From: a virus
Reading direction: 5' to 3' (one strand)
Virus record (IMG/VR): IMGVR_UViG_3300034166_000764
Coordinates: 1 to 52,192 of that record
DNA: 52,192 nucleotides
Below, piece after piece: positions 3,478 through 52,074 of this stretch. How positions within the stretch are numbered: position 1 is the stretch's first letter; every line of letters begins with the position of its first letter. The notes beneath the pieces are model-generated. The model was not told the origin of the DNA and ran no database searches. It was given only the letters and a program-made list of their open reading frames with translations. Both the position numbers and the translations under genes were made by a program.

Positions 3478-3739
3478 CTCTAAACTCTCCTTCTAATGCT
3501 TTAGTTAAATAGTTAATTGCTTTCTTTAACTCTAGTTTAACATCATCTTTATTACCAGCTCTACATAAGTGTTTAAGAGCATAAGTAACCCAAACACTTG
3601 ACTTGTAAGCTTTATCATCTGATCCTAAAGCCTTAAATACATTATACCCTATTTCTTCCTGAACATCACTCACCTTAAAACTATTTTTATAATAGTGGTC
3701 TGGTTTGTATGTGTCTGGTTCTGGTGCTTCTACTGGCAT
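3470..3739 (-). CDS. DUF3310-family protein
   Basis: About 89 residues with the DUF3310 layout common in phage nucleotide-metabolism regions: a PDHY motif near the N-terminus, then a helix with YALKHLCRAGNK and a final helix with LKKAINYLTKAL. I chose the ATG at 3737-3739, which has AGGAGG ten bases upstream; a TTG at 3748 is possible but leaves only one base after that ribosome-binding site. It overlaps the 3' end of nrdA. The biochemical function of the family is unknown. Confidence 0.8.
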   Translation of the reverse strand: MPVEAPEPDTYKPDHYYKNSFKVSDVQEEIGYNVFKALGSDDKAYKSSVWVTYALKHLCRAGNKDDVKLELKKAINYLTKALEGEFRDG

Positions 3740-8920: not shown

Positions 8921-9106
8921 TTAATTATTTTTAATTTTCTTTTTAACTTCTTTCTTTTTCTGCACTTCCCAGTAATACTCACACTCTTCACCTTCTTTAA
9001 AGAAATTAGCATAAGATTGCCTCATTCCTTCAGGAGCAGTGTGTCTATAACAAGTATCTTTTTTTAAACAGTTTTCACTATTAAAACATTTTGAAATGTC
9101 AGCCAT
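8921..9106 (-). CDS. Small cysteine-rich protein (DISKC family)
   Basis: Sixty-one residues starting MADISKC, with cysteines at 7, 13, 19 and 42 and the segment CYRHTAPEG. The cysteine spacing suggests metal binding. I have seen similar short proteins in many phages and prophages, all of unknown function. The longer reading frame upstream (to 9286) overlaps nrdB and is not used. Lies 52 bases after the nrdB stop. Confidence 0.7.
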   Translation of the reverse strand: MADISKCFNSENCLKKDTCYRHTAPEGMRQSYANFFKEGEECEYYWEVQKKKEVKKKIKNN

Positions 9107-9158
9107 AATATTTATATTCCCATATTTTAGTAAAGTAATTGTTAAGAAAAAATAAAAT

Positions 9159-10100
9159 TTACCAATTAATAGCACCTTTAGCGTATTCAGTAGCTCTGTT
9201 TTCAAAGAAATTAGTATGTTCCTTAGCTGATAGCATAGTATCCATGTATGGTAAAGGGTTTTCAGACACCTTAAATAATGGTTCATAGCCTAGACCTCTA
9301 AGTCTCATGTCAGCTAGGTACTCTATGTATTTACAAGTATCTTCTAGCTTCAATCCTACCACATCACCGTCAGCAAAGCAGAGTTTTAAGAACTCTTTTT
9401 CAGCATTTACTATGTCTATACAAGCTGTATATACTCTATCTGCTAATACTTCTAAATTAATGTTAGACTCTTGTACTAGAGTTTTAAAGAGTGTTGAGAC
9501 ACCTAAAGAGTGAATACTCTCATCTTCAGCACTCCAAGCAACTATTTGACCTACGCCTTTCATTAACCCTCTTCTGGAAAAGTTTAACAATACAGCAAAT
9601 GAGCCGAACAGGCTCACACCTTCAATAAAACCACCGAATACGGCTAGGTTAAGAGCTAGTGCCATATCTGATACACTAGCACCAGTGGAATAGTAGTGCA
9701 TTTTATCTATCTTTTTCCTCATCTCTTCATACTCTAGAAACTTACTATATTCGTTTTCAGGCAATCCTAATGTATCATTAAGGTGAGAATAAGCCCATAC
9801 GTGGATATTCTCACGTGAAGCAAAAGAAGATAACATCATAGTGATCTCAGGCAGTTGGAAATTATGTATCAGTTGCGTATTATAATTATTTTGTACTTCT
9901 AAATCCCCTTGAGTAAAGAACCTAAGTATCTGTATTAACAGATTCTTTTCACCATTTGTTAATCTGGTGTTGTAGTCTCTGATATCATCTGCCATAGGTA
10001 CTTCTGTAGGTAGCCAGTGCATTTTCTCATGCTTTTCAAATAAGTTATATGCCCATCCGTAGTGAATAGGCTTGTAGTGTTTTCTTGTTCCTAAAATCAT
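9159..10100 (-). CDS. nrdB: Ribonucleotide reductase class I small subunit
   Basis: A 313-residue diiron protein. Ligands Asp66, Glu97 and His100 are present, and Tyr104 occupies the radical-tyrosine position (ENIHVWAY, matching E. coli Glu115, His118, Tyr122). A later EDESIH supplies the second Glu and His ligands. So it is a tyrosyl-radical enzyme, partner of the NrdA at 3730-6600. It has its own sigma-70-type promoter immediately upstream, and the predicted 5' leader is only about five bases with no ribosome-binding site. Confidence 0.96.
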   Translation of the reverse strand: MILGTRKHYKPIHYGWAYNLFEKHEKMHWLPTEVPMADDIRDYNTRLTNGEKNLLIQILRFFTQGDLEVQNNYNTQLIHNFQLPEITMMLSSFASRENIHVWAYSHLNDTLGLPENEYSKFLEYEEMRKKIDKMHYYSTGASVSDMALALNLAVFGGFIEGVSLFGSFAVLLNFSRRGLMKGVGQIVAWSAEDESIHSLGVSTLFKTLVQESNINLEVLADRVYTACIDIVNAEKEFLKLCFADGDVVGLKLEDTCKYIEYLADMRLRGLGYEPLFKVSENPLPYMDTMLSAKEHTNFFENRATEYAKGAINW

Positions 10101-10111
10101 AGTGCGTATAT

Positions 10112-10140
10112 ATTATAGTATCCCTTTTTCTTGTTTTCAA
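10112..10140 (-). promoter_or_regulatory. Sigma-70-type promoter of nrdB
   Basis: On the minus strand, TTGAAA (10135-10140), a 17-base spacer and TATAAT (10112-10117). The -10 element ends 11 bases before the nrdB ATG, so the transcript should start about 4-5 bases before the start codon. Confidence 0.75.
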
Positions 10141-10286
10141 TCATTAAGATTCTTAATCTTTAATATTTTGTAAGTCTTATCTTTAGTTACTAGCTTACTT
10201 CCAACTACTGGAAGTAGAATATCTTTAAGAAGAGCAATAATCTTAGCTTTTTCTCTCTCTTCTTTTCTTACCTTTTTGCTCTTCAT
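10137..10286 (-). CDS. Small lysine-rich hypothetical protein
   Basis: Forty-nine residues beginning MKSKKVRKEE, basic at the N-terminus with a hydrophobic IIALLKDILLP stretch. It begins 5 nt after the stop of the next upstream ORF and ends within the -35 element of the nrdB promoter. Only weak ribosome-binding sequence is present. Confidence 0.5.
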   Translation of the reverse strand: MKSKKVRKEEREKAKIIALLKDILLPVVGSKLVTKDKTYKILKIKNLND

Positions 10287-10291
10287 AATTA

Positions 10292-10489
10292 CTAATTCTC
10301 TATCTGTGAGCAGTCTATTAAACTAATATCTACACTAGAATCAAAATCACTAAAGTAATGAATATTAGCTATACTATAATCTGGATGTATAGAGTAGCCA
10401 TAGCTGTTTAATAAGTTAATCAGCTCTAGTTCTGGTATTCTTAGTTCTATTTTAAGCGGTTTTTTATTTTCTGTTTTCCTTGTTTTCAT
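10292..10489 (-). CDS. Hypothetical protein
   Basis: Sixty-five residues with a basic N-terminus and an IPELELINLLNSYGY segment. No family recognised. Part of the tightly packed run of small early ORFs, with short spacing (11 bases) from its upstream neighbour. Confidence 0.6.
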   Translation of the reverse strand: MKTRKTENKKPLKIELRIPELELINLLNSYGYSIHPDYSIANIHYFSDFDSSVDISLIDCSQIEN

Positions 10490-10500
10490 ATCCTATCCTT

Positions 10501-10713
10501 TTATGAGTTTACTTCCCCTAACATTACTGAACTATCATCCAGTACCCAAAATATAATCTTCTTAGACGGTTTAAGTAGTTCTAATGACTTAATCATATTT
10601 TGAGTGTTATTAGTTTTAAGTACATGCTTAATATGTATAGCATGTTTATCAGTTGGTGTTTCAACTGTGAAATGCTCAAATTCTCTCAGTTCTTTTAATA
10701 TATTATCTAACAT
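10501..10713 (-). CDS. Hypothetical protein
   Basis: Seventy residues; a helical start followed by a probable beta-hairpin near the C-terminus. Its start overlaps the end of the 47-residue membrane peptide gene by 11 nt. Function unknown. Confidence 0.6.
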   Translation of the reverse strand: MLDNILKELREFEHFTVETPTDKHAIHIKHVLKTNNTQNMIKSLELLKPSKKIIFWVLDDSSVMLGEVNS

Positions 10714-10846
10714 TCTTAGTCATCCAAGTATTTTTAACTACACTACATACATTAATCACTATATCAGCAAGCACTATAAATACTGCTATCGGTATAAAGA
10801 TTAATACACAAGCTACTAATCCTATTATTAAATCTATTATTATCAT
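10703..10846 (-). CDS. 47-residue single-span membrane protein
   Basis: Starts MIIIDLIIGLVACVLIFIP, one long hydrophobic segment covering about residues 2-36, then a short basic tail ending in KNTWMTKNVR. Its ATG overlaps the previous stop in TAATG, and GAGGAAG lies just upstream, so translation is coupled. It could be a small inner-membrane effector or holin-like peptide, but early position argues against a lysis role. Confidence 0.65.
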   Translation of the reverse strand: MIIIDLIIGLVACVLIFIPIAVFIVLADIVINVCSVVKNTWMTKNVR

Positions 10847-11058
10847 TATTTCACTTCCTCATAATCTTCACTAAGATACTCTTTAAACCTATCTATACTC
10901 TTTATTATCACTTCACTAGCTGGATAACCTTGCATGATTAATAAATTAGCATCATCAGCTATCGTATATAGGTATGAGTTGATATTATCTGATTCGTAAA
11001 TCTCGTTATCATCTAATACCTTTCTCAGTTCTATTAATAAATCTGATACTTTAGTCAT
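10846..11058 (-). CDS. Hypothetical acidic protein
   Basis: Seventy residues, acidic and helical. It ends in TAATG shared with the small membrane protein. No domain recognised. Confidence 0.62.
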   Translation of the reverse strand: MTKVSDLLIELRKVLDDNEIYESDNINSYLYTIADDANLLIMQGYPASEVIIKSIDRFKEYLSEDYEEVK

Positions 11059-11079
11059 TTTCTTAACCCTCTTTTATTT

Positions 11080-11304
11080 TTAACGTAATATTTTACGCAT
11101 CTCATTAGGCGTGTAATTATGTTGTAGCCTGCGAGGTGTTACATCGTTCAATAATCCCCTAGCAGTTCTATTTACTTCATAGTGAAACTCTATCCTAAGT
11201 TCTAGGGTTCTTACTCTCTTTAACTTTTTTCTGAGCCTATCGACAGCATCACATCCATGACTTAAGGCACTCATTACTTGAGAATTTATTTCTTGATTAG
11301 TCAT
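11080..11304 (-). CDS. Small basic protein, possibly nucleic-acid binding
   Basis: Seventy-four residues, arginine-rich (LRKKLKRVRTLELR and TARGLLNDVTPRRL). The charge pattern would suit DNA or RNA binding but no fold is recognised. Overlaps the upstream ORF by 4 nt. Confidence 0.62.
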   Translation of the reverse strand: MTNQEINSQVMSALSHGCDAVDRLRKKLKRVRTLELRIEFHYEVNRTARGLLNDVTPRRLQHNYTPNEMRKILR

Positions 11305-11639
11305 TGTTTACCTACCTTTAATTCACTAATAACACTAGAAAGCCCTTTATTAGATAACTCTAAATAGTTTATAGTAGCTCTATAATCTCGGTTAGTAGCT
11401 GCTACATAAGCTATCATTTCTGCTTTCATGCCTTCACTAAAAACAGCATAATAGTATATTGCATAATCTAATAAACTGCTGCCCTCTGGAAGAGGTAATA
11501 ATCGCTTAAGTTCTTTATAGTAAGTATTGAACTTTTTAGTTTTAAGTTTAGGTATTTTATTATATTTAATCATATGCTCATAGTGTTCTAATTCCTCTGG
11601 TAACATATAAAATACGCTTTTTAAAGTGTGGTTATTCAT
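11301..11639 (-). CDS. Hypothetical protein
   Basis: A 112-residue helical protein with a tyrosine-rich middle (LLDYAIYYYAVF). Coupled at both ends by short overlaps. No family recognised. Confidence 0.65.
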   Translation of the reverse strand: MNNHTLKSVFYMLPEELEHYEHMIKYNKIPKLKTKKFNTYYKELKRLLPLPEGSSLLDYAIYYYAVFSEGMKAEMIAYVAATNRDYRATINYLELSNKGLSSVISELKVGKQ

Positions 11640-11787
11640 GGTCTATTACCTCACCTACTATTCTTTTAATTAATTCGCTAGCCTCTTCTATAGCCTCACT
11701 AGCCTCTATTTCTCTGATTATGTACTCTTCATCCATACCAATATCTATTTTAGATATTAGTTTCTTTATGTTATTGTAATTGTTCAT
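11632..11787 (-). CDS. Small acidic helical protein
   Basis: Fifty-one residues (MNNYNNIKKL to VIDHE), strongly acidic and helical with repeated EA and EE pairs. A good GAGAGG ribosome-binding site lies seven bases before the ATG, and the stop overlaps the next start by 8 nt. Confidence 0.62.
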   Translation of the reverse strand: MNNYNNIKKLISKIDIGMDEEYIIREIEASEAIEEASELIKRIVGEVIDHE

Positions 11788-11810
11788 ATTTTTACCTCTC
11801 TTTTTTGTTA

Positions 11811-12545
11811 TTAAATCCTATCTATTATCCATGTATCACTGTCCTTAGTCCAGCTTATTTTACGCATATTTAAACCTAATTTTTTTAATATAGATTCGTG
11901 ATAGCTAATTCCCACGCCCCCATCAAATTTAGGTAAATTTAACCCGTATTGACTTATCCCGTAATTAATGGATTCTCTCAGTTCTAAATTATTCTTACTT
12001 ACTAAGCCCTTGATCTCATTAGCATTTCTATTAATACATAATAATTTTTCTATTTTATTAAGAATTAACTTTTTAATAACTACTGATTGATTTAATAAAT
12101 CAGCCGTACTCGTTGATTCTTTGCAATATCCACACCCGCTAATTTTATAAGAATTCTCATAAAATTCTAGCGAATAGCCTTTAGTATGAAATACTGTTAA
12201 TTTTCCCCTTGGATTACTGCCCCAAGTAGCTGACTTTTTCCAGTCTGTATGTATTGACATATCTCTAAAATCTTCTAAATTAAAAGATTCGATTTTATCT
12301 AAATCAGCTAAGAGCTTATTATATTTTTTATCTAGATCTTTTAACTCTTTTTTAGCTTTTTTAGGGTCTTCTGTTTCTTTATTTTTTGTTTCTCTTTTAT
12401 CATAATCGGGATTCTCAGCTATAAAAGTTTCTAATGCTTTTAAAGCATTTTCGAGATCTTGCGAATATTCAGCTTTTTTAGCTTCATATAGATTTTTATA
12501 AAAATCTCTTAATAGTTCATATTTTGTTGGTGCTGTATTTTCCAT
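11811..12545 (-). CDS. Hypothetical coiled-coil protein with C-terminal globular domain
   Basis: A 244-residue protein. Residues of about 8-95 are charged and helical, likely coiled coil. A globular part follows, with a SGCGYCKEST segment and a C-terminal WTKDSDTWIIDRI strand. I recall the GCGYxKxST element from uncharacterised phage proteins. No enzymatic motif is evident. Confidence 0.7.
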   Translation of the reverse strand: MENTAPTKYELLRDFYKNLYEAKKAEYSQDLENALKALETFIAENPDYDKRETKNKETEDPKKAKKELKDLDKKYNKLLADLDKIESFNLEDFRDMSIHTDWKKSATWGSNPRGKLTVFHTKGYSLEFYENSYKISGCGYCKESTSTADLLNQSVVIKKLILNKIEKLLCINRNANEIKGLVSKNNLELRESINYGISQYGLNLPKFDGGVGISYHESILKKLGLNMRKISWTKDSDTWIIDRI

Positions 12546-12562
12546 TTTGTTTATTTTTCCTT

Positions 12563-12934
12563 TTATTTTAAAATTATATTTTCTAACCTTTCATTTTTAT
12601 ACTTGTCATAAGCTTGTAGATACTTTTCTTTTCTAGTATCATCATCTAGAAGTTTATTATCTTTTAAAGTTTTTAGTAATTCCTTTTTAATCCATTTGGG
12701 GGTTTTACGCCATTCGTTAACAAGATAATACCCATCTATTGAATAATTACATTTTTCAAAATGCCCTAATTTGCGTAAAAATAAGGTGTCGGTATACCCG
12801 AGACAGTTCTCTGGAGTCTCAATATATACATACGTATCAAATTCATTAACACCATATTCTTTAAATGTATAATAGATAGTGTCTACATGTATCACGTACT
12901 CTAACCCTTCAAATTTTCTACTTTTTAGTTTCAT
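12563..12934 (-). CDS. Hypothetical protein
   Basis: A 123-residue protein with a beta-rich first half and a basic helical second half (KTLKDNKLLDDDTRKEKY). A GGAATAAATA leader before the ATG resembles those of the next three upstream genes. Function unknown. Confidence 0.65.
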   Translation of the reverse strand: MKLKSRKFEGLEYVIHVDTIYYTFKEYGVNEFDTYVYIETPENCLGYTDTLFLRKLGHFEKCNYSIDGYYLVNEWRKTPKWIKKELLKTLKDNKLLDDDTRKEKYLQAYDKYKNERLENIILK

Positions 12935-13042
12935 TATTTATTCCTTTAATAGTTTTAATTTGTTCATCTGTTAGTTACACCTACTATATGATTCTCTTTT
13001 ACTAACTCATAATATTTCATTTTTATATATTCCCTTTATTTT

Positions 13043-13324
13043 TTAAATAAAATTGTAATTACTAGCTAATTTAGCTTGTTCTGTCCATATTCCATAATTA
13101 TTTGACCAGTTTCGGTCCCTTATAGCATACTCTTTACCTTTAATTTTAAAGGTTAAATAATCATAAAATTTTGACGTTACAGGATTATAAGTTAGTTTTT
13201 CTTTAACTAATAAAATTTCATTCTCATTAAATTCTGAAAAGTATTGCTCAGCTCTGAGCACTTCTAAGCCATTTATTTTTAAGCTAGAATTTCTAGCTAT
13301 AGTACATTCTATTGTTATTTTCAT
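13043..13324 (-). CDS. Hypothetical protein
   Basis: Ninety-three residues, predicted beta-rich. Starts 3 bases after the stop of the next upstream ORF. Unrecognised. Confidence 0.62.
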   Translation of the reverse strand: MKITIECTIARNSSLKINGLEVLRAEQYFSEFNENEILLVKEKLTYNPVTSKFYDYLTFKIKGKEYAIRDRNWSNNYGIWTEQAKLASNYNFI

Positions 13325-13327
13325 AAT

Positions 13328-13561
13328 TTATTTATTCCTTATTATATTCTCAATACTATTCCTATCATAGATGTAATACCCATCTATCATTTGCCCATCT
13401 TCATCAAATATATAATCTGGTAAATCATTAACTAACTCAATAGTTAGAACATGCCCTGTATTAAATATTGATAAATCAGCTATTATATATATTTTATCAC
13501 TATCTAAAATAATTTCTAGATCGTTAGTATTTAATAGTTCTATTAGTTCTGTTTCTGTCAT
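13328..13561 (-). CDS. Hypothetical acidic protein
   Basis: Seventy-seven residues, acidic and beta-rich, beginning MTETEL. It is preceded by a GGAATAAATAATT leader and by the second copy of the hairpin element (13575-13608). Shares the MTET start and leader with the gene at 13619-13882, so the two leaders may be related by duplication. Confidence 0.62.
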   Translation of the reverse strand: MTETELIELLNTNDLEIILDSDKIYIIADLSIFNTGHVLTIELVNDLPDYIFDEDGQMIDGYYIYDRNSIENIIRNK

Positions 13562-13574
13562 AATTATTTATTCC

Positions 13575-13608
13575 AAGCAGTTTTTTGACTTGCTTAAGTC
13601 TTGGTTAC
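13575..13608 (-). promoter_or_regulatory. Leader hairpin element, copy 2
   Basis: The minus strand reads GACTTAAGCAAGTC, a perfect 5-bp hairpin with a four-base loop, followed by AAACTGCTT next to the ribosome-binding region of the 13328-13561 gene. The TGCTT can pair instead with the AAGCA of the loop. Related to copy 1 at 14145-14176. Confidence 0.55.
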
Positions 13609-13618
13609 TAATTAACTT

Positions 13619-13882
13619 CTATTCCTTATCCCATATGATATTTTCTAAAAAGTTTCTAATATTCTCTTGTATTATATCGTCAAGATAAACAAAGTAAACT
13701 TCTTGCTCAGTACATATCATCACTTCCCTTGACTCTATCTCGCTTAAATGAAGTTCAACTATCTCGCCTAGTTGCGGGCAGTGAACAGTAGTCCATCCGT
13801 CACAATACACACTATCATTTGATAGCTTGTTTATAAGCTCTAGCGCTTTCAAAATCTTCTTATTATATGCTGTTTCTGTCAT
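13619..13882 (-). CDS. Hypothetical acidic protein
   Basis: Eighty-seven residues starting MTETAY, helical N-terminus, a central CDGWTTVHCPQLG segment and a beta part. GGAATAAATAATT leader as in its neighbour. No family recognised. Confidence 0.62.
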   Translation of the reverse strand: MTETAYNKKILKALELINKLSNDSVYCDGWTTVHCPQLGEIVELHLSEIESREVMICTEQEVYFVYLDDIIQENIRNFLENIIWDKE

Positions 13883-14227: not shown

Positions 14228-14530
14228 TTATCTTATTGCCTCAAGCAAGCTATTAACTTGCTCTTGCGATAGAGAAGTATCTCTACCTCTGTAACTTAAG
14301 CTAGCTGGGCTAGCTGGCTCAGTGATGTTACCATCCCAAGCCTCTTTTATAGTCCAGTTACCTGAACTATAAAATGTGGCATGGTGAACATAGCTGTTCA
14401 CCCACCCTGTTTCTTTATCCCAATGACGGGATAAAGGATTTTCTAAAATACTAGGCAACTGCCTAGCAATTTTAGATTCTATTTCACGCTCTTCTTGAGC
14501 GTATTTTGATTTTAATTCTTCGTTTCTCAT
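14228..14530 (-). CDS. First early gene, hypothetical, leaderless
   Basis: A 100-residue protein, acidic helical N-terminus, then a tryptophan-containing region (HWDKETGWVNSY) and a C-terminal SLSQEQVNSLLEAIR helix. It is the first minus-strand gene after the divergence zone, with its own promoter and its own strong terminator, as expected of an immediate-early protein. There is no ribosome-binding site; the -10 element ends six bases before the ATG. Function unknown; a host-takeover protein is a reasonable guess from position only. Confidence 0.75.
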   Translation of the reverse strand: MRNEELKSKYAQEEREIESKIARQLPSILENPLSRHWDKETGWVNSYVHHATFYSSGNWTIKEAWDGNITEPASPASLSYRGRDTSLSQEQVNSLLEAIR

Positions 14531-14536
14531 ACTATT

Positions 14537-14565
14537 AATATAGCAAAGTTAGATTAAGAAATCAA
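14537..14565 (-). promoter_or_regulatory. Early sigma-70 promoter
   Basis: Minus strand TTGATT (14560-14565), 17-base spacer, TATATT (14537-14542), then six bases and ATG. A good host-type promoter predicted to make a leaderless or near-leaderless mRNA. Confidence 0.8.
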
Positions 14566-16720: not shown

Positions 16721-16800
16721 TAGCTATATTATATATTAGCTATATTATATATTAGTTATATTATATATTAGTTATATTATATATTAGTTATATTATATAT
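16721..16800. repeat. Five 16-bp AT-rich tandem repeats
   Basis: Five consecutive units TAG(C/T)TATATTATATAT at 16721, 16737, 16753, 16769 and 16785. The first two have C and the last three T at the fourth position. They lie inside an almost pure A/T tract (16611-16866) that also has several CAGTATTATATATTA copies. This resembles a DNA-unwinding element of an origin. Confidence 0.8.
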
Positions 16801-17055
16801 AACAGTATTATATATTATATATATTATATATATTAGTATTATATATTATAGTAGTATTAAATATAAAACCCCGATCCGCATGCTGCTTATAGTATGCCAT
16901 TTTTCAAAAAACGTAGCCACTATTTTAAAAATTTAATAATTTCTTAATAATTCATTAACATTTCAGTATAGTTTAAGTTTAGGTATCTGAAGTAGAAAGT
17001 AAACATCAATTCTAAGAGGTCTACAAGGTCATAGAATCAAAGTAAAGTATCTGTT

Positions 17056-17154: not shown

Positions 17155-17182
17155 GTAACAGAATTGTAACTCTTGAAATACT
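17155..17182 (+). promoter_or_regulatory. Late-type promoter P1
   Basis: GTAACA (17155-17160), 16-base spacer, AATACT (17177-17182). The ATG at 17192 follows nine bases later, so the mRNA would be leaderless. Confidence 0.65.
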
Positions 17183-17191
17183 ATGATTCTT

Positions 17192-19816: not shown

Positions 19817-19884
19817 TGTTGGTGGAGGGGGTTGAACCCTCGTACGTCTCACGTTAAGACACTTTACCATTAAGCTACACCAAC
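19817..19884 (-). tRNA. Shortened tRNA-like element, anticodon uncertain
   Basis: Sixty-eight bases on the minus strand with a perfect 7-bp acceptor stem (GTTGGTG/CACCAAC, discriminator A), TA at 8-9, a D-arm containing GCTTAATGGTAAAGT, and a T-arm GAGGG-TTCAACC-CCCTC. The anticodon arm is abnormal. GTCT/AGAC can pair around TAACGTG, but this loop lacks U33; an alternative fold gives anticodon AAC with one mismatch. It is about four bases shorter than a normal tRNA. It lies between terminase and portal against the direction of late genes. Confidence 0.5.
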
Positions 19885-19969
19885 ACATTAATTATACCAC
19901 GATATTTAGATTTATAATAAATATCTTTAAAAAGAAACATTAAATTTTTTTCATCTCCATGTAACTTGT

Positions 19970-19984
19970 TATACTATATATAAT
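19970..19984 (+). promoter_or_regulatory. Portal promoter, TATACT type
   Basis: TATACTATATATAAT directly before the GTG start, the same -10 and downstream block as the late promoters, but without GTAACA at 16 bases (TTTTCA instead). Confidence 0.55.
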
Positions 19985-26628: not shown

Positions 26629-27038
26629 TGAAAGTTGAGATGATTGGTTTTGATATGAACACTGACTTAGATGTCACCTTTGCCGATAAGCAAATGTTTT
26701 TATTACTAACTAAATCAATCATGGTTAGAGTTACTGACACTAAACAACCTTCTCTACACTCATTTAGCTTTAGAATACCTAAAGGTACAGCATCAGACGG
26801 TGCTAGCAGACCTTTATGGTCAGCGTGGTTAATAGGTGAGAAAACTAAACAACATTACATAAGAGCTGCATTAGTACATGATTTCCTGTGTAGAGAAAAG
26901 ACTTTGCCTCAAAGATTAACTCACGGTATATTCAAAGAACTGCTTAAACAAGATGGTGTAAACCTAGTAACTAGAAATCTAATGTACGCAGCAGTAGTAG
27001 CTTACAACAAAGTAGGGAACTTGTCATGGAAGTGGTAA
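26628..27038 (+). CDS. DUF1353 protein
   Basis: A 136-residue protein with the DUF1353 pattern: FRIPKGTASDGASRPLW, then YIRAALVHDFLCR with a conserved His-Asp. The family often sits beside phage lysozymes, as here, and its function is unknown; a peptidoglycan-related role is only suggested by that association. Confidence 0.82.
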   Translation: MKVEMIGFDMNTDLDVTFADKQMFLLLTKSIMVRVTDTKQPSLHSFSFRIPKGTASDGASRPLWSAWLIGEKTKQHYIRAALVHDFLCREKTLPQRLTHGIFKELLKQDGVNLVTRNLMYAAVVAYNKVGNLSWKW

Positions 27039-27062
27039 CAGCAGACACTAAAGTGTTATACT
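27035..27062 (+). promoter_or_regulatory. Late-type promoter P3
   Basis: GTAACA (27035-27040) overlaps the DUF1353 stop; 16 bases; TATACT (27057-27062). The next ATG is 12 bases downstream without a ribosome-binding site. Confidence 0.75.
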
Positions 27063-27074
27063 ATATACATTAAG

Positions 27075-27230
27075 ATGTCTTCTTCAGGTGTAGAACTTAA
27101 ACTAGATTTAATGATAGAGCAAAAAGCTGTAACAGGTGGCATCCCATCGGACAGTTTTTACATTCTTCAAGAAGACAATTTTAAAATTCTTCAAGAAGAT
27201 AGTTTTGGGATATTAACAGAAAATGCCTGA
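27075..27230 (+). CDS. Small tail-region protein with ILQED repeats
   Basis: Fifty-one residues. The C-terminal half repeats FYILQED / FKILQED / FGILTE, a short-repeat design I associate with phage virion proteins. Directly behind promoter P3 and overlapping the next gene by 8 nt. Predicted leaderless. Confidence 0.6.
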   Translation: MSSSGVELKLDLMIEQKAVTGGIPSDSFYILQEDNFKILQEDSFGILTENA

Positions 27231-29340: not shown

Positions 29341-29418
29341 CTAACCAATTAGTAACGTTCACTGTCAAAGTGTTATACTATATATAGTATGGACTTTAAT
29401 ACTATGATCTCTCAAGCT
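29332..29418. repeat. 87-bp promoter repeat, copy 1
   Basis: Matches 30479-30565 with four mismatches in 87. It includes the last codons of the collagen gene, a late promoter and the first ten codons (MDFNTMISQA) of the following gene. The two copies flank an accessory cassette. Confidence 0.92.
29352..29379 (+). promoter_or_regulatory. Late-type promoter P4
   Basis: GTAACG, 16 bases, TATACT (29374-29379), then ATATATAGT and ATG. Duplicate of P5. Confidence 0.75.
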
Positions 29419-30478: not shown

Positions 30479-30565
30479 TTAAAATAACCAACCAATTAGT
30501 AACATTCACTACCAAAGTGTTATACTATATATAGTATGGACTTTAATACTATGATCTCTCAAGCT
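30479..30565. repeat. 87-bp promoter repeat, copy 2
   Basis: Second copy of 29332-29418, offset by 1,147 bp. The segment matching the end of the collagen gene is non-coding here, so this copy marks the right junction of the insertion. Confidence 0.92.
30499..30526 (+). promoter_or_regulatory. Late-type promoter P5
   Basis: GTAACA (30499-30504), 16 bases, TATACT (30521-30526), then ATATATAGT and ATG. Drives the ejection and tail protein operon. Confidence 0.8.
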
Positions 30566-39055: not shown

Positions 39056-39832
39056 TTAATCATCTACAAAACATCCACATCCGCCGAAATCATTTTTTTC
39101 TATTTCATTTAATTCTAAGTGCTTCTCCCTAAAAGCCTTTAAAGATAGATATTCTATTTTTTTATTAATTGTTTTTTTTAAAAAAGGTTTATCTAATTTA
39201 GGATTTTTTTTAATTAAATCTTCTTGCTCCTGTTCGTGCCTTAAATAAACTTCTGGTAATTTTTCGTAAAGGTTTTTGAAGTGTGCAAGTCCAGCCCTGA
39301 CACAAAAACCACCGCAATTATTATGAGAAAAACCTAAGTCATATAATCTAGGTTTTTCGATTCCATAACTGCTTAATATTTTTTCTTTATCTTCTGGGAA
39401 AATAAAAGGTTTATCGCAAAGTGGTGCTATAACTTCATAGGGATTATTTATTTTGGCTCTTTCTAGTCTTTCCGATTCCTCCCAGCCGATACCCAAGCAA
39501 ACAACAAAATCACCATTAGGGTAATTTTCTTTAATCCATTTATTGAAAGTTTCTCTTTTAAGGATTTTAGAACATGGTGCTATTCGAGAATTACCTTGAA
39601 GCTTAACATCCTCGAAAACTTGCCACGGGGTTCTTCCATCGGCTATTTCGATTAATTCTAAATTCAAAGCTTGAGCTGATTCCCTTAAAAATCTATATAG
39701 GTCGGGGTCTTCGATCAAAGTGTCCGTAAAGACTAATTTGATTTCCGTTTCTGGATATTTGATTTTGCACAGGTGAGCAGCATAAAAGCTACCTAATCCA
39801 CCCGAATAACTAACTATGATTGTTTTTGGCAT
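39056..39832 (-). CDS. PAPS-reductase-like ATP pyrophosphatase
   Basis: About 258 residues. The PP-loop SYSGGLGS is at residues 8-15 of the ATG-started protein, then VFTDTLIEDPDLY. Near the C-terminus HNNCGGFCVRAG and GGCGC supply cysteines for metal or iron-sulfur binding. The family includes PAPS reductase and DndC-type enzymes, which activate nucleotides or transfer sulfur. I chose ATG 39832 because AGGAG lies about ten bases upstream; a GTG at 39856 overlaps the previous gene. Last gene of an inverted three-gene cassette. Confidence 0.75.
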   Translation of the reverse strand: MPKTIIVSYSGGLGSFYAAHLCKIKYPETEIKLVFTDTLIEDPDLYRFLRESAQALNLELIEIADGRTPWQVFEDVKLQGNSRIAPCSKILKRETFNKWIKENYPNGDFVVCLGIGWEESERLERAKINNPYEVIAPLCDKPFIFPEDKEKILSSYGIEKPRLYDLGFSHNNCGGFCVRAGLAHFKNLYEKLPEVYLRHEQEQEDLIKKNPKLDKPFLKKTINKKIEYLSLKAFREKHLELNEIEKNDFGGCGCFVDD

Positions 39833-39833
39833 T

Positions 39834-40286
39834 TTAACTATACTCCTGGTAAACACAAGTAAGTTTTTTCTTCTGATCTTCTTTAGTTAGTAGAGCTACT
39901 TCTGCCACTCTTCTTTTCTTAAGTCCTGACTCAGAAGCTAGACCTTTATTAATCTTATTCTTCATAACCCACGCAGCAGCAGGTTTATTACCGCTAGCAG
40001 CTAACTTAACTGCTTTAGTACAGCCGTATCTACCGGCATTATAACAATAGCTAACTAAAGCATCATGCTCATTCTTAGTAGCATTTTTAAATATTGATAA
40101 TACGTATTTAGAATCTAACTCCAAGTGTTTAACCATTCTAGACTTAGCTTCTGTCTTGCCTATACATTCCCATTTGCTATTAGCTTTAGTACCGTAGCCG
40201 TTAGAGTATTGAGATAAGTCATGGTAAGCACAACTAGAGAAGCCTTCCAACCCAATTATAAAAGTTAATAAAGACTCTGTAATCAT
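39834..40286 (-). CDS. Second GH24-type lysozyme
   Basis: A 150-residue protein with Glu14, Asp23 (E-x8-D) and SNGYG where TIGYG is usual, so the catalytic Thr is replaced by Ser. NEHDALVSYCYNAGRYG and KKRRVAEVALL match later lysozyme motifs. It differs strongly from the lysozyme at 26164-26628. No signal peptide. Overlaps the signal-peptide protein gene by 4 nt, so the cassette looks like a separate lysis module. Confidence 0.82.
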   Translation of the reverse strand: MITESLLTFIIGLEGFSSCAYHDLSQYSNGYGTKANSKWECIGKTEAKSRMVKHLELDSKYVLSIFKNATKNEHDALVSYCYNAGRYGCTKAVKLAASGNKPAAAWVMKNKINKGLASESGLKKRRVAEVALLTKEDQKKKLTCVYQEYS

Positions 40287-40612: not shown

Positions 40613-40718
40613 AAAAACTCTCCCTTACCTATTGTACCCAAAATTAGGATTAGTATTATTAATTATCTCTAATGTTCAAGTAACAAGACAATCCCCACTG
40701 TAATACTATATATAATAG
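40613..40718. promoter_or_regulatory. Divergent promoter region
   Basis: Separates the inverted lysis cassette from the appendage genes. The plus strand holds late promoter P6. The minus strand has a possible TACAAT about 17 bases before the ATG, without a good -35. Confidence 0.5.
40680..40707 (+). promoter_or_regulatory. Late-type promoter P6
   Basis: GTAACA (40680-40685), 16 bases, AATACT (40702-40707), then 11 bases and ATG. Confidence 0.7.
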
Positions 40719-45426: not shown

Positions 45427-45846
45427 TTAATGATTAGCCTCCCTCTCTGTCTCTAGTATAACACCAGCCTTACCAATATGTCTAGGGTATTCTCTACCTC
45501 TCATAATTAATTGATGTTCATATTTAGTAGGCTTAAATATCTCAACTAACTTAGCTACAGCATTATCTACATCAAACTCTTTACAGCTAAATATATCTAC
45601 TGTTAAGAAGTTATCCTGATCTGGGAAAGTGTGGAAGGCTATATGACTCTCTGCTATTAGCACAACACCACTTAGACCCCACTCTTCCTCTACTTTACCT
45701 TTATACTTAAATACATATGGTGGCATTATCTTAGTCATACCCAGAATACTAGGTAAATTATCCAATACTTCAGTAAGTTTATCTATGCTAGTTAGTGTGG
45801 AAGGCTCACAACCGTAAGCCTCCAATATAAGGTGTGGCCCAAACAT
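45427..45846 (-). CDS. speD: S-adenosylmethionine decarboxylase
   Basis: A 139-residue AdoMet decarboxylase of the short prokaryotic type. The proenzyme self-cleaves between Glu66 and Ser67 in AESHIAFHTFP, making the pyruvoyl cofactor from Ser67; His68 and Cys88 (DIFSCKE) are the conserved processing and catalytic residues. It makes decarboxylated AdoMet for spermidine synthesis. Polyamines could help DNA packaging or host growth. No spermidine synthase is present, so the host must supply it. Confidence 0.92.
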   Translation of the reverse strand: MFGPHLILEAYGCEPSTLTSIDKLTEVLDNLPSILGMTKIMPPYVFKYKGKVEEEWGLSGVVLIAESHIAFHTFPDQDNFLTVDIFSCKEFDVDNAVAKLVEIFKPTKYEHQLIMRGREYPRHIGKAGVILETEREANH

Positions 45847-47012: not shown

Positions 47013-47232
47013 TACTATCACCTACATTCTTCAAATCATCACCTATTCTATTTAAAGTATCAATGTCTTTAGAATCTACTATAGCATTAACAGCTAGCTC
47101 AGCTATCTTACACAACTTATCTTTATCCCAATGAGGATTAAAAGCTATAGCTAGTGTAAATACACCATCATGTAATCCATAAGTAGCTTCATCTAAAGCT
47201 ATGTAGTATCTATTAGTTAATTTATCGTTCAT
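47002..47232 (-). CDS. Small hypothetical protein
   Basis: Seventy-six acidic residues, with YIALDEATYGLHDG. Overlaps both neighbours by a few bases. Unrecognised. Confidence 0.65.
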   Translation of the reverse strand: MNDKLTNRYYIALDEATYGLHDGVFTLAIAFNPHWDKDKLCKIAELAVNAIVDSKDIDTLNRIGDDLKNVGDSSET

Positions 47233-48401
47233 AAATATACTGGGAAATACTTATAAAAGTTAGTTTCCCTTCTCCCTTTACTATCTATATAATAGCTTAT
47301 AGCTTGTGAAGCTTTGCTATTAAACCCTAACGTATCAGCGTATCCATCTTGTCCACAGAGAGAACCATTAGTAACTATCTTTCCATCCATATAAGAATTA
47401 CTCTCATGGTAATGACCCATTCTAAAGAAGTCTATATTCTTTTTTAACTGAACTGATCTATTAGCAATGTGAGTAAGGATAGATTTAGGATTGTTACTCT
47501 TAATCATATCTCCATGTTCATATACTATAGTATTACCATAAAGCTCTACTACACTATAATTGACTTCTGAAATATCCCATACTACATTATTGTACCCAGA
47601 TTTATTACTTAGTAACATTAAGATATTATAAATAATCCAGGTAACATTATTCTTAGCAGCATGACTAAATGATTTATGTTCTTGAGTCCTATCATGGTTT
47701 CCAGTAACCCCAACAACCTTTACATTAATCCCCTTAGAGGCAGCATACGCAAAGACAGGACTCAAGATATCTTCAAACAGTGATATGGTAGAATAAGTTA
47801 TTTGTTCACTGTTTCCAAACTCACAACCTACAGCAGACTCTAAGCCGTGCATAGTGTATGATTCTATAATATCACCCATAAGAGCTATGATTACATTCTC
47901 TACATTAAAGATTTTAGATTCATTCTCTATCTCTTTTATAAGAACATCAGCAAGCTCTACTAGCCTAGCTCTAGCTACCTCAAGATTGAATGTAGCAGTC
48001 TTCTTACCAAAGTGCAGATCGCTAAGAAGCAACTCAATAGACATACTATGTTTGTTATTAACTTTCTTTTCATTATGTTTGACAGTCCTCGGCTTTATCT
48101 TATCTACTATGTCATTAACAGCTATCAGTATATCATCTAATAATAGATGTTTCTCTGCTATGTTGTTAAGGTTCTTAGCTACTTCTCTATTCCTAGCAGT
48201 TAGTCTAACATTAGTTTTAATTACATTGATCTGGTTCTTATCAGATACATAGTAACCATATCTAGAGTAAGCCACAGATAAAGCACTACAGCTTTTATCG
48301 TCACTGAATTTTTTATTATATTTATCTTTAATTACATCCCAATCTAAACCTTGTAGTTTAAGATCGTGTATAAATAGTATATGTTCTTCTTGATAACTCA
48401 T
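47229..48401 (-). CDS. Calcineurin-like metallophosphoesterase with N-terminal helical domain
   Basis: A 390-residue protein. The first 55 residues look like a small helix-turn-helix-like domain. The phosphoesterase core is complete: Asp128-x-His130 (SDLHFG), Asp177 (GDIIE), Asn235-His236 (GNHDR), His296 (EHGD) and His330-x-His332 (GHYHE). This matches phage metallophosphatases related to SbcD/Mre11 nucleases, so a DNA-end nuclease or nucleotide phosphatase role is likely. Coupled to the sigma-like gene by an ATGA overlap. Confidence 0.85.
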   Translation of the reverse strand: MSYQEEHILFIHDLKLQGLDWDVIKDKYNKKFSDDKSCSALSVAYSRYGYYVSDKNQINVIKTNVRLTARNREVAKNLNNIAEKHLLLDDILIAVNDIVDKIKPRTVKHNEKKVNNKHSMSIELLLSDLHFGKKTATFNLEVARARLVELADVLIKEIENESKIFNVENVIIALMGDIIESYTMHGLESAVGCEFGNSEQITYSTISLFEDILSPVFAYAASKGINVKVVGVTGNHDRTQEHKSFSHAAKNNVTWIIYNILMLLSNKSGYNNVVWDISEVNYSVVELYGNTIVYEHGDMIKSNNPKSILTHIANRSVQLKKNIDFFRMGHYHESNSYMDGKIVTNGSLCGQDGYADTLGFNSKASQAISYYIDSKGRRETNFYKYFPVYL

Positions 48402-49561
48402 ACATACTCCCTTAGAAGGTCTTTGAAATCAGGATTCTTTAAAGCTCTCAATGCTCTAGATACTACCCCTTTACCAAACTCTTCAATCAAACTTCTCTTA
48501 CTTGTTTTAGTATAACCAAACAATCCAAATAGTCTACAGATAACTAACTCATTAATTTCACCTAAAGTAGATAAAGCTCTTTTAAGATCAATAAGATAGT
48601 CGTTATCCTCTGTAACGCTTGTTTTATCATGCTTTACGATAGATACTGAGTTAGTATATTTAGTAATATATTTTAAGTCTTTCTTAGTTAAGTTAGTCAT
48701 CTTCTCATCATTGAGAGAAGTACCATCAAAATTACTTCTAGTAGCTTTCATAATGTTAGTAACTCTCTTAACTGGAACTATAGTGTTGTAAGTAACTACC
48801 TCATTGACTAAAGCTTGAGCATATACGTTTCTAAAAGCATAATGTATATTATCATAATTTGAATAGTGTTTAACTAACTGTAGCACTGCTGCATTAAAAC
48901 AAGACTCTGCTACATTAGGATCTTGTGTGTATCTTGTAGCAAAGTTAGACTTATAACTCTTCAACTGTTCACAAAGTCTAACTATCCATCCAGAATGTTC
49001 ATCACCAGAGCTGGTAGCTGCTTTAGTAACCAACTCTTTCAATGACATCTTTCTGGACTTTCCCACACTAGCAGTGTTACCACTAACTAGAATACCCTTT
49101 AACTTCTTTAACATCTCATACTTACTACCTTCTAAGTTAAACTTAGCTATACACTCCTTAAGAGAAGGGTACTTAAAGTTACCACTAGCATTAGGTATAG
49201 CTACATGATCTCTAGCTAGTTCTAGTAGATCAACAAGAACTATAGCTGGAGTAGGTCTATTAACTTTAAAGTATAAACTAGCTAACATAGTATCTTGGAA
49301 GTCTTTGTTAATAGTATAGGTGCTAAACCCTTCTGAACCATCATTAAGAATGTCGGTTATTTCTTTAATAGTGTAGCCTTTAGCAAGCTTCTCATCAGTA
49401 ATACCGTTGATAGCAGTGATATGAGCTGGTACTGTGTAACCTTCTGCTTGTTTAATGTAGTGTGTATTATCATCAATCACAACCGCTAGCACGTTAGGTG
49501 TGCTAGGGTCTTTATAGTTATGGGTTTTTAACAGCCCATCTGTTTCAAAGTATAGTATCAT
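48398..49561 (-). CDS. Sigma-70-like protein fused to degenerate DnaQ-like domain
   Basis: A 387-residue two-part protein. Residues 1-155 follow the DnaQ/DEDD order: ILYFETDGL (where DnaQ has DTETTGL), AINGITDEKL, TINKDFQDTML, then VDLLELARDHVAIP and YPSLKECIAKFNL. But the first catalytic Asp is Tyr4, and the Exo III His and Asp are absent, so it is probably inactive. Residues 215-275 resemble sigma region 2 and 3.0 (CFNAAVLQLVKHYSNYD, FRNVYAQALVNEV, IVPVKRVTNIMKATR). Residues 322-387 resemble region 4 (LKRALSTLGEINELVICRLF to ALRALKNPDFKDLLREY). It is the only candidate transcription factor for the late promoters. Confidence 0.6.
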   Translation of the reverse strand: MILYFETDGLLKTHNYKDPSTPNVLAVVIDDNTHYIKQAEGYTVPAHITAINGITDEKLAKGYTIKEITDILNDGSEGFSTYTINKDFQDTMLASLYFKVNRPTPAIVLVDLLELARDHVAIPNASGNFKYPSLKECIAKFNLEGSKYEMLKKLKGILVSGNTASVGKSRKMSLKELVTKAATSSGDEHSGWIVRLCEQLKSYKSNFATRYTQDPNVAESCFNAAVLQLVKHYSNYDNIHYAFRNVYAQALVNEVVTYNTIVPVKRVTNIMKATRSNFDGTSLNDEKMTNLTKKDLKYITKYTNSVSIVKHDKTSVTEDNDYLIDLKRALSTLGEINELVICRLFGLFGYTKTSKRSLIEEFGKGVVSRALRALKNPDFKDLLREYV

Positions 49562-49562
49562 A

Positions 49563-49823
49563 CTAGAATCCTTTTTTAGTTTTAGGTTTAGCTACTGCTT
49601 TAGTCTTAGGTAAGTTCTTTTGAATCACTGCTGACAGTGCTACTAAAGCTTTATCATAATCTAGGTTACCTGTTAGCTCGTAGTCAAATTCAGTTTTAAC
49701 TCTTTTAACAAAACCTTCAGCTAACCTATTACCAACTTCTTCAAACACTTCTGTATCCCACAGTAAATCATTTAATACTCTGTCTATAATTGGTGTCACT
49801 AAGTTTGATATAAATATTTTCAT
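49563..49823 (-). CDS. Small hypothetical protein
   Basis: An 86-residue protein with a helical core and a Lys/Ala/Pro tail (KAVAKPKTKKGF). One base from the sigma-like gene and 36 from the helicase, GGAG upstream. Unrecognised. Confidence 0.68.
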   Translation of the reverse strand: MKIFISNLVTPIIDRVLNDLLWDTEVFEEVGNRLAEGFVKRVKTEFDYELTGNLDYDKALVALSAVIQKNLPKTKAVAKPKTKKGF

Positions 49824-49859: not shown

Positions 49860-51104
49860 TTAATAATTATAACCTACCACCTCATTAAATACTTGTCCAT
49901 TAATATTAGTAAATGGCATCAGTGTACTCTCATTCATACCACCACCAAACTCATGTCTATTTTTTAAGCATTGTAGATCCACTCTGTTACGTTCCTCAGT
50001 CTTAGTTATAGTAATGATTTGACTAGCAGCATCTTTAGTCTGCCCTGAACCTTTAATGTCATCATAAGACTTAATAGTCTTAGAACTGCTGCCACTATCT
50101 ACAGAGGACTTTCTTAGCTGTGCTAAGCAGATAGCTATAGCACCTTCATCTATACAATACTTCTTTAGACCTAATACAAACTCATCAAACTTAGCTATGT
50201 CTGTATTACCAGTAACCATGTTAAGATGATCTACAAAGATAAACTTATACTTCTTCTTGTAAAGCATTGGTAAGAAGTCATCTATGTTAGGGTGACAGCC
50301 AAAGTCAATATCCATATCATACACAGAGTCTTGTAAGTCATTAATGATAGCTATATCATCCCTGTTGGGGCTTTCCACTGACTTCATATTAAATGTTAAT
50401 CTACCTTTCCTTGTAGCCAACTGTACTAAAAGCTTTCTCATTAATACATTAGAATCCATCTCTAAACTGTTATAGAAGCAAGGGTAGTGTCTACTAAAGT
50501 CTTCTAGTAGATTAAGAGCAAAGGTAGTCTTACCACAACCAGTACCAGCAGTCAATACCAGTATATCATTCTCTCTCAGCCCACCACCAAAGCATCTATT
50601 TAAAGAATCATATCTAGTAGGGTAGATGATAGATTTACCAGTCTCTAAGTAGTCTACAGCCTGCTCTAACACCTTATCAAATGCTTGCTTAACACTCTTA
50701 GGTTCATCTATTCTAGGTAGTCTAGCTATGTTCTTATTCAGTACAGCAAGGTGTTTATCAAACTTCTCTGGTGAGTCTAGAACTGCTTGGTTAAACACTT
50801 CTAAGAATCCAGTAGTCTTTAGTTTCTTATAATTATCTAAGCTACCTTTAAGATATATTACTTTCTGCTCTTGAGGTAAGTTTTTAAACAACTGATATTC
50901 TTCTGATGTGGTTAGTTCAGCTACATAAGTAAGCTCACTATCAGTAAGTGATTGCATACCTTGACCATCTTGTATACTCTTAAGTATGTTCACCGACATA
51001 GTGTCATCAAAGAAGTCTAAAGGAAGAGTAGATACCTTCTTAGATATATACTGATCCATAGTACCATCTAATGGTGTTATAGCTAACAGTTCTTTATTAT
51101 ACAT
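49860..51104 (-). CDS. DnaB-like replicative DNA helicase
   Basis: A 414-residue helicase. The N-terminal helical part (1-150) precedes a RecA-like core with Walker A GTGCGKTT (187-194), Walker B FIFVDHLNM, AQLRK and a late QTKDAASQI segment. It unwinds the fork, and pairs with the primase encoded immediately upstream (8-nt overlap). Confidence 0.93.
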   Translation of the reverse strand: MYNKELLAITPLDGTMDQYISKKVSTLPLDFFDDTMSVNILKSIQDGQGMQSLTDSELTYVAELTTSEEYQLFKNLPQEQKVIYLKGSLDNYKKLKTTGFLEVFNQAVLDSPEKFDKHLAVLNKNIARLPRIDEPKSVKQAFDKVLEQAVDYLETGKSIIYPTRYDSLNRCFGGGLRENDILVLTAGTGCGKTTFALNLLEDFSRHYPCFYNSLEMDSNVLMRKLLVQLATRKGRLTFNMKSVESPNRDDIAIINDLQDSVYDMDIDFGCHPNIDDFLPMLYKKKYKFIFVDHLNMVTGNTDIAKFDEFVLGLKKYCIDEGAIAICLAQLRKSSVDSGSSSKTIKSYDDIKGSGQTKDAASQIITITKTEERNRVDLQCLKNRHEFGGGMNESTLMPFTNINGQVFNEVVGYNY

Positions 51105-52074
51105 TGTTTACATCCTTCTCTATCTCTCTAACACTCATAGACCTGATCTGAGCTAGGTCTAAACTCATCTGCTTTCTATGTAACATAAATTTACATGACC
51201 TTATCAATCTAATAATATCTAAATCATTATACCCATGATTAAGCATCCACATAACTACTCCTATCTTAACATAGTTATTATCATTATACAAACACTCACC
51301 AAAATCTTTACCAGAATAATCATAACAATACACTGGAACTCCTACAGCTATTAGTTTCTTTAACAGCTCATATTGTGCCTGTAAACCTGATTTATCATTA
51401 TCAAGAGCTAATATAATATCTCTTCCTAAGTCTTTTAACTGTTTAATCTGCTGCTCACTAGCAACACAACCACCTAAAGCTACACAATCTAAATCTTCTT
51501 GTTTAGCTAAGATAGAATCAATGTAAGACTCTACCACTACTACAGGTGCTTGTCTATTAGTGATGTTGTCTAATCCCATCAGCACCTCTGACTTACCACC
51601 ATCACTACTATACCTATACTCTTTTCTGTAAATGTCTCTAGTCATATGGAACTTATACTTTTTATTTTTAGATATTGGAAATACTATAGCAGATCCAAGT
51701 GCAGCAAGCCTATAGTCATCTATAGAGTCATCAGTAATACCTCTAGAATAGAGGAACTTCTTATGTGCTTCAGTTAATGGTTCAAACTCTGGTGATTCCT
51801 CTAACTCTATTTTATCATACTTTATCTCAAACATATCAGCTATTTCTTTAGCTGCTTGAGTGTAGTTTAAGTCATTTAGTTGAGAATAGTATCTAATAAT
51901 GTCTGACCTTTCACCACAAGCAAAGCAGAAAGCAAAGTCATCATTCACTATCATAGAGGGAATCGTATCATTATGAAACGGACATCGTATCATTTTCTTA
52001 GTTATCCTAATGTTGAGTTTGGATAAAAAATTCTCGAATGTGATCTGGCTTTTTATATCATTAAATAACTTCAT
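51097..52074 (-). CDS. DnaG-type primase with CHC2 zinc finger and Toprim
   Basis: A 325-residue primase. Zinc finger Cys31, His34, Cys50, Cys53; Toprim with Glu182 (VVVESYID) and Asp225-x-Asp227 (LALDNDKSG). The short C-terminus probably contacts the helicase. Its start lies in the terminal repeat, so on the circle it continues across the junction and overlaps the exonuclease stop by 14 nt. Confidence 0.93.
   Translation of the reverse strand: MKLFNDIKSQITFENFLSKLNIRITKKMIRCPFHNDTIPSMIVNDDFAFCFACGERSDIIRYYSQLNDLNYTQAAKEIADMFEIKYDKIELEESPEFEPLTEAHKKFLYSRGITDDSIDDYRLAALGSAIVFPISKNKKYKFHMTRDIYRKEYRYSSDGGKSEVLMGLDNITNRQAPVVVVESYIDSILAKQEDLDCVALGGCVASEQQIKQLKDLGRDIILALDNDKSGLQAQYELLKKLIAVGVPVYCYDYSGKDFGECLYNDNNYVKIGVVMWMLNHGYNDLDIIRLIRSCKFMLHRKQMSLDLAQIRSMSVREIEKDVNNV

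Follow-up and report, generated by a model that had tools for sequence, protein, structure and literature searches.

Genome context and architecture of the fusion gene

The minus-strand gene at positions 48398–49561 of virus record IMGVR_UViG_3300034166_000764 encodes a protein with a DnaQ-like N-terminal half and a sigma-like C-terminal half. The window, that is, the whole stretch of DNA that was analysed, comprises all 52,192 bases of the record. The ends of the record share a 193-bp direct repeat (192 of 193 positions identical), and it is therefore probably a complete genome. The virus infects bacteria, and its genome has a G+C content of 29–37%. The minus strand carries two gene sets that become contiguous once the genome ends are joined. 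The left-end set contains RNR, PolA and a Cas4-like exonuclease, and the right-end set contains, in order, a primase, a DnaB helicase, an 86-aa ORF, the sigma/DnaQ gene and an Mre11-like phosphoesterase. The virion genes (terminase, portal and others) are located on the plus strand. The replication genes referred to below have the following positions.

1252–3210, minus strand: family A DNA polymerase with its own exonuclease domain
47229–48401, minus strand: Mre11/SbcD-like metallophosphoesterase, with a 4-nt overlap with the end of the sigma/DnaQ gene
48398–49561, minus strand: two-domain sigma/DnaQ gene, 387 aa, single open frame
49563–49823, minus strand: 86-aa ORF, function unassigned, directly upstream of the sigma/DnaQ gene
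49860–51104, minus strand: DnaB-type helicase
51097–52074, minus strand: DnaG-type primase (zinc ribbon and Toprim)

The first-pass annotation placed the gene within a replication operon, in agreement with this arrangement, in which the helicase and the Mre11-like phosphoesterase flank the gene and the 86-aa ORF lies on the helicase side. The same annotation saw no phage RNA polymerase, which fits the gene content. A search of the genome with the PF00940 HMM also gave no phage RNA polymerase match, but this test carries little weight because the control genomes were likewise blank.

Other features were observed elsewhere in the genome. The gene of the RNR large subunit (3730–6600, minus strand) is interrupted by a LAGLIDADG-type (intein-like) insertion, and the homologue in the related viral contig L020 (15387–17054) apparently contains an insertion too. 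In the same contig, at least six small ORFs (9064–13770) encode otherwise different proteins that end in a common peptide, RPxAVRxALRxDLL(K), resembling a repeated C-terminal tag. The window also encodes an S-adenosylmethionine decarboxylase (45427–45846, minus strand; PF02675, E 3e-27), possibly a host-metabolism gene, and a PAPS-reductase-like protein (39056–39856, minus strand). An A+T-rich array of ∼16-bp units (GTTATATTATATATTA) at 16723–16836 occupies the long intergenic stretch from which the early and late genes diverge and is possibly a replication origin. A tRNA candidate at 19817–19884 (minus strand), antisense between the terminase and portal genes, is recognized by Rfam (RF00005, 51.7 bits) with no ARAGORN call and has an unusual anticodon loop.

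The sigma/DnaQ gene occupies exactly the interval first assigned to it, as one intact frame of 387 codons, and is preceded by an AAGGA ribosome-binding site 8–9 nt upstream of the ATG. The encoded protein is divided into the following segments.

49097–49561, minus strand: DnaQ-like domain, residues 1–155
49004–49096, minus strand: linker rich in S, G and K, residues 156–186
48797–48988, minus strand: sigma region 2, residues 192–255 (VRLCEQLKSYKSNFATRYTQDPNVAESCFNAAVLQLVKHYSNYDNIHYAFRNVYAQALVNEV)
48734–48784, minus strand: sigma region 3.0, residues 260–276 (TIVPVKRVTNIMKATRS), with VPVKR at residues 262–266
48638–48691, minus strand: sigma region 3.1, residues 291–308 (LTKKDLKYITKYTNSVSI)
48401–48595, minus strand: sigma region 4, residues 323–387, with a C-terminus like ALRKLRHPSRSKKLKDYL

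The C-terminus of the fusion protein reads ALRALKNPDFKDLLREYV. Within the linker, M172 is an in-frame ATG preceded by a weak site of the GGGAAAG type, and initiation at this codon could yield a sigma-only product.

The sigma-like half

Pfam, NCBIfam and PHROGs all label one stretch of the fusion protein as sigma (TIGR02937, E 0.0019; Sigma70_r2, E 0.069; PHROG 1740, E 0.051). In a six-frame search of the whole window, this gene is the sole sigma match (TIGR02937, E 8e-5; PF04542, E 0.007). The E-value of TIGR02937 was not relied upon, as this model also gives weak matches to short HTH segments across many phage records. The scores are lower than the curated HMM cut-offs (17.8 versus 42.9 bits for TIGR02937 and 13.4 versus 24 bits for PF04542), which are detection thresholds and not biological properties; the protein is therefore called a divergent sigma-70 variant and not an ordinary member of the family.

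With HMMER, a profile built only from primary sigmas did not match the fusion protein significantly. A broader profile of 28 sequences, composed of primary, alternative, ECF and phage sigmas, was used with hhalign and checked on decoys as a guard against the choice of a favourable method. The sigma-like half aligns with this profile over 198 columns (198 of 202 residues) with a score of 40.9, compared with a maximum of 23.5 among 150 shuffles and of 25.3 among the other ORFs of the window. Among 994 phage ORFs, scores at or near 40.9 are obtained only by true sigmas (three that are in the profile or identical to its members, and one annotated sigma at 40.0), and the remainder score 30.1 or less. 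On the same profile, gp47 of phage 7-11, an experimentally proven phage sigma, reaches only 22.3.

Regions 2, 3.0, 3.1 and 4 are arranged collinearly with those of sigma-70 in one chain, as observed with both hhalign and MAFFT. Region 3.1 aligns with sequences such as LTPEKVREILKIAQEPVSL, and the C-terminal RALRALKNPDFKDLLREYV matches primary-sigma endings such as KTLRKLRHPSRSKKLKDYLE. Region 4.2 is ∼6 residues shorter than in primary sigmas, and region 2.2 and the aromatic residues typical of primary sigmas (DLIQEG; YATWW stretch) are not conserved. The fusion protein thus shares with RpoD/SigA the collinear regions 2 to 4, a VPVxR-type region 3.0 and region 3.1, and its KALRKLRHPSRSKKLKDYL resembles RALRALKNP..LLREY of these proteins. 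It differs from them in its low identity (17–24%), the absence of region 1, shorter regions 3.2 and 4.2, changes in the aromatic residues that read the −10 element, and the additional N-terminal DnaQ-like domain. The original description of the C-terminal half as a divergent sigma-70 is upheld by the 198-column collinear alignment, which scores above shuffles and non-sigma decoys.

An AlphaFold2 model built on the single sequence was discarded (pLDDT 35). For residues 186–387, AlphaFold2 was seeded with an alignment of 33 primary sigmas, and the resulting model, which is not independent of its seed, has a mean pLDDT of 64.7, with ∼90 in region 4. Foldseek searches of the PDB and viral libraries with this model retrieve mostly sigma factors, with probabilities up to 0.99; the whole-chain TM values are low because the interdomain arrangement is undefined. 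In VIA-align, the first domain of the seeded model (residues 1–71) superimposes on region 2 of SigR (1h3l_B) with a Z-score of 9.8 and a deviation of 1.7 Å over 70 residues. The last domain superimposes on region 4 of SigA (7kuf_B) with a Z-score of 8.1 and a deviation of 2.5 Å over 65 residues, within a range of 2.4–3.0 Å against SigA region 4 for this sigma-seeded model. An ECF region 2 is among the best matches and its class is absent from the seed, which is mildly reassuring for a model of this kind. The seeded model is taken as supporting, non-independent evidence for sigma folds.

The DnaQ-like half and its relatives

The DnaQ signal extends over residues 29–146 (PHROG 192, E 2.5e-7). 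Pfam RNase_T matches the same half with an E-value of 9.6e-5, just under its cut-off, and several DEDD-exonuclease and PolC models of NCBIfam match as well. In hhalign against a small DnaQ profile, this half scores 35.8, and 200 shuffles score at most 22.6; the single ORF among 500 decoys that outscored it is itself a DnaQ-type exonuclease (RNase_T, E 2.8e-5). The sequence signature of the DnaQ/DEDDh family is recognisable, and the three libraries and hhalign agree on the DnaQ-like nature first proposed for this half. When compared separately with profiles, as the first-pass annotation had suggested, the DnaQ-like (35.8) and sigma-like (40.9) halves both score above shuffles.

The catalytic residues were aligned with those of the active-looking proteins of DSS3_MAL1 and L291–L294 and of E. 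coli DnaQ. In the ExoI motif, the first Asp is replaced by Tyr4 and Glu6 is retained. The Asp of ExoII is lost (Tyr97, or Gln89 in an alternative alignment), and the His and Asp of ExoIII are replaced by Lys147 and Lys152. The Tyr4 substitution and the missing ExoIII residues had been recognized at the outset, and the loss of the ExoII Asp is additional. Of the catalytic D-E-D-H-D set, on which DEDD exonuclease activity relies, only Glu6 is left; with four of the five residues lost, nuclease activity is very unlikely for the DnaQ-like half.

By sequence, the nearest relatives of this half are phage DnaQ-like proofreading subunits (PHROG 192; DSS3_MAL1 QGH74860 and L291–L294), with which it shares the signature around GITDE..AKGY and AIPNASGNFKYPSLKECI. 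The DSS3_MAL1 and L291–L294 proteins are standalone, consist of 202–207 residues and keep the D-x-E, HNxxFD and H..D motifs, whereas the fusion protein, unlike the PHROG 192 proteins, combines an attached sigma with a DnaQ-like half depleted of these catalytic residues. The phage PolA itself contains an exonuclease domain (PF01612, E 3e-13; ExoI motif present as VDLET); the DnaQ-like half is therefore not needed for proofreading.

Searches by tblastn in phages, and searches of viral contigs (with the full protein and the DnaQ half), species-genome contigs and 34 related viral records, yielded no homologue of the fusion, and the claim therefore rests on one orphan sequence. Retrieval based on the neighbouring genes (phosphoesterase, helicase, polymerase and primase) led to distant phages without an orthologue. 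The human-gut 'phage' scaffolds matched by PolA are seemingly bacterial and were dropped. The nearest phosphoesterases (34–41% identity) belong to large phages that carry a separate DnaQ gene with intact-looking motifs 1–2 kb from the phosphoesterase gene, and several of these phages have a DNA polymerase III alpha gene at the same distance. A DnaQ gene in such a neighbourhood is thus ordinary, and what is new is the inactivation of DnaQ and its fusion to a sigma. In the simplest history that we infer, the DnaQ subunit became free once PolA brought an exonuclease domain itself, and it was later put to a new use. The initial statement that no described sigma is known to carry a dead DnaQ-like domain is matched by a limited open-access literature search, which found no relevant report of a sigma–exonuclease or sigma–DnaQ fusion.

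Sigma-like ORFs were also observed in phages with related phosphoesterases. L002 (15147–15689) and L003 (14955–15497) carry a small sigma (180 aa) that has no near counterpart in named phages. In L191 (1486–2544; record of L030), a 105-kb phage with a closely related phosphoesterase, a 352-aa ORF shows a weak sigma region 2 match.

Late promoters and proposed function

The sequence GTTATACTATATA is found four times exactly and GTAATACTATATA once, all ahead of plus-strand genes. The pattern GTAACN{14,19}ATACTAT has exactly five matches in the window, every one of them a plus-strand site with an 18-bp spacer. Shuffling gives an expectation of 0.10, and none of 100 shuffles reaches five matches, a significance that is somewhat inflated because the pattern was written after four sites had been seen. 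The predicted late promoters, and a further −10 block, are listed below.

17155–17184, plus strand: predicted late promoter GTAAC-N18-ATACTAT; ATG at 17192, 14 bp past the start of ATACTAT
27035–27064, plus strand: predicted late promoter GTAAC-N18-ATACTAT; ATG at 27075
29352–29381, plus strand: predicted late promoter GTAAC-N18-ATACTAT; ATG at 29389
30499–30528, plus strand: predicted late promoter GTAAC-N18-ATACTAT; ATG at 30536
40680–40709, plus strand: predicted late promoter GTAAC-N18-ATACTAT; ATG at 40719
19968–19980, plus strand: GTTATACTATATA −10 block before the portal gene (GTG at 19985), with GTAAC at the wrong spacing

At all six −10 blocks, the start codon lies 14–17 bp beyond the start of ATACTAT; if transcription starts ∼7 bp after TATACT, the late mRNAs would be nearly leaderless. 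At 29389 and 30536 (plus strand), the late promoter and the gene start (MDFNTMISQA...) are duplicated, and the products are a 41-aa peptide and then a 102-aa protein. The GTAACA promoters first proposed are real as part of the bipartite motif GTAAC-N18-ATACTAT, but the GTAACA hexamer alone, with 53 sites, is not diagnostic and was rejected as a promoter mark. The pattern GTAACN{12,21}TANNAT was also rejected, as its matches are not above chance.

Two minus-strand sites are candidates for host-type early promoters.

10112–10140, minus strand: candidate early promoter TTGAAA-N17-TATAAT, before the RNR small subunit gene
14537–14565, minus strand: candidate early promoter TTGATT-N17-TATATT, before the ORF at 14228–14530

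Promoter scans of this A+T-rich genome give matches as frequently as in shuffles, and these two candidates are therefore based on their position and not on the scan. Their −35 elements are host-like, unlike the GTAAC of the late promoters. The late promoters are thus phage-specific, bipartite and distinct from the early promoters, which are candidates only.

Phage-encoded late sigma factors are already known. In vitro, the sigma gp47 of Salmonella phage 7-11 directs host RNA polymerase to late promoters of the form GTAAtg-(16)-aCTA, and the early genes of this phage use host sigma-70 (PMC8948821). Both phages have a sigma with region 4, bipartite late promoters with GTAA at −35 and aCTA at −10, and early promoters of the host sigma-70 type, which are candidates here; use of the host core is a fact for 7-11 and a proposal for the fusion protein. 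The promoter spacing differs (GTAACN-(19)-ACTA here), and gp47, a 185-aa protein annotated as similar to ECF sigma, has no extra domain and no detectable close sequence relation to the fusion protein. The DnaQ-like exonuclease of 7-11 (gp82) is encoded by a separate gene, whereas here it is fused.

The first-pass annotation had drawn its analogy with T4 gp55, which consists of a sigma-region-2 homology domain, a helix-loop-helix and a C-terminal clamp-binding motif (PMC7892883, PMC2988020). The analogy holds for the sigma-region-2 homology and, as proposed here, for production before late expression and a role as late-promoter specificity factor. It is only partial. The fusion protein keeps regions 3 and 4 and so departs from the gp55 pattern of region 2 without region 4, its C-terminus aligns with that of primary sigmas where gp55 has the clamp-binding motif, and its extra domain is N-terminal and DnaQ-like. 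A link to replication has been shown for gp55 and the gp45 clamp and is only proposed for the fusion protein. The better functional precedent of the two is gp47 of 7-11.

Domain assignments, loss of catalytic residues, and the promoter set with its strand bias are direct outcomes of the computation. The gene probably encodes a sigma-70-family phage sigma (residues ∼186–387) joined by a flexible linker to a catalytically dead DnaQ-like domain, a judgement that includes the late-promoter role. The earlier nomination of this protein for late promoter choice is considerably strengthened by the five-site promoter set, and it is likely that the protein is a late sigma working with the host RNA polymerase core. 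It would be made early, from the replication operon; its sigma half would bind the host core and, we infer, recognize GTAAC-N18-ATACTAT, steering the bound core to late promoters on the opposite strand, from which the near-leaderless late mRNAs would start. The dead DnaQ-like domain probably descends from a proofreading subunit associated with a polymerase. Its role is probably one of docking or regulation, and it would most likely contact DNA, the phage polymerase or the replisome.

The first-pass annotation had linked late transcription to replication forks. That the fused dead exonuclease domain tethers a late sigma to the replisome, and so couples the two processes in a way that owes nothing to the clamp–sigma contact of T4, is plausible but rather less likely than not. 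A role of this half as a lid, in regulation or in nucleic-acid binding is at least as likely as fork docking. The odds are slightly short of even that it is a generic regulatory or nucleic-acid-binding domain (a region 1.1-like lid, or a binder of 3' ends or ssDNA) with no replication link, the protein then being an odd late sigma; this reading opposes fork docking only and leaves the sigma assignment intact. It is favoured by the exonuclease domain of the phage's own polymerase and by gene proximity, which alone would explain the fusion, given the DnaQ genes close by in the phages with the nearest phosphoesterases. The evidence against it is circumstantial: subunits of the DnaQ type act in replication, and the gene is located between the helicase and the Mre11-like gene.

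The late promoters might also be read by host sigma-70 unaided, since TATACT is one change from TATAAT. An unlikely alternative is that the host sigma-70 holoenzyme reads them with a further phage activator, while the sigma-like half only binds the core (anti-sigma/core appropriation) and shuts off host transcription. The −10 and −35 elements agree with the host consensus at five of six (TATAAT) and, for GTAACA, four of six (TTGACA) positions, and the core- and −10-contact residues of region 2 are divergent and region 4.2 is short. However, five identical bipartite late sites with a −35 element unlike that of the early candidates suggest a dedicated factor, and regions 2, 3 and 4 are kept collinear. 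It is highly improbable that the C-terminal half resembles sigma by chance only and belongs to some other class of DNA-binding protein rich in helices, as the HTH tail of a DnaQ-like gene: the HMM matches are all weak (E 0.002–0.07) and TIGR02937 is prone to HTH matches, but the alignment covers 198 collinear columns and not one HTH, and no shuffle or non-sigma decoy scores as high. That a decayed dnaQ and an independent sigma gene were merged by misassembly or a frameshift is barely plausible, as the single contig without relatives and the in-frame M172 codon in the linker are set against one uninterrupted open frame that keeps its phase, M1 as the only start with a good ribosome-binding site, the 4-nt downstream gene overlap and terminal repeats that point to a clean, complete assembly.

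For the preferred reading of a late sigma with a dead DnaQ-like domain, the promoter set makes the sigma function directly testable in vitro, and near-leaderless late messages that all start from promoters of a single fixed geometry are interesting in their own right. The switch to late genes may be tied to DNA copying. To our knowledge, the coupling of late transcription to replication has so far rested on T4 and its relatives. If the DnaQ-like domain does dock to the replisome, the fusion protein would represent a second, independent solution to this coupling, in which a proofreading subunit was converted into a targeting domain.
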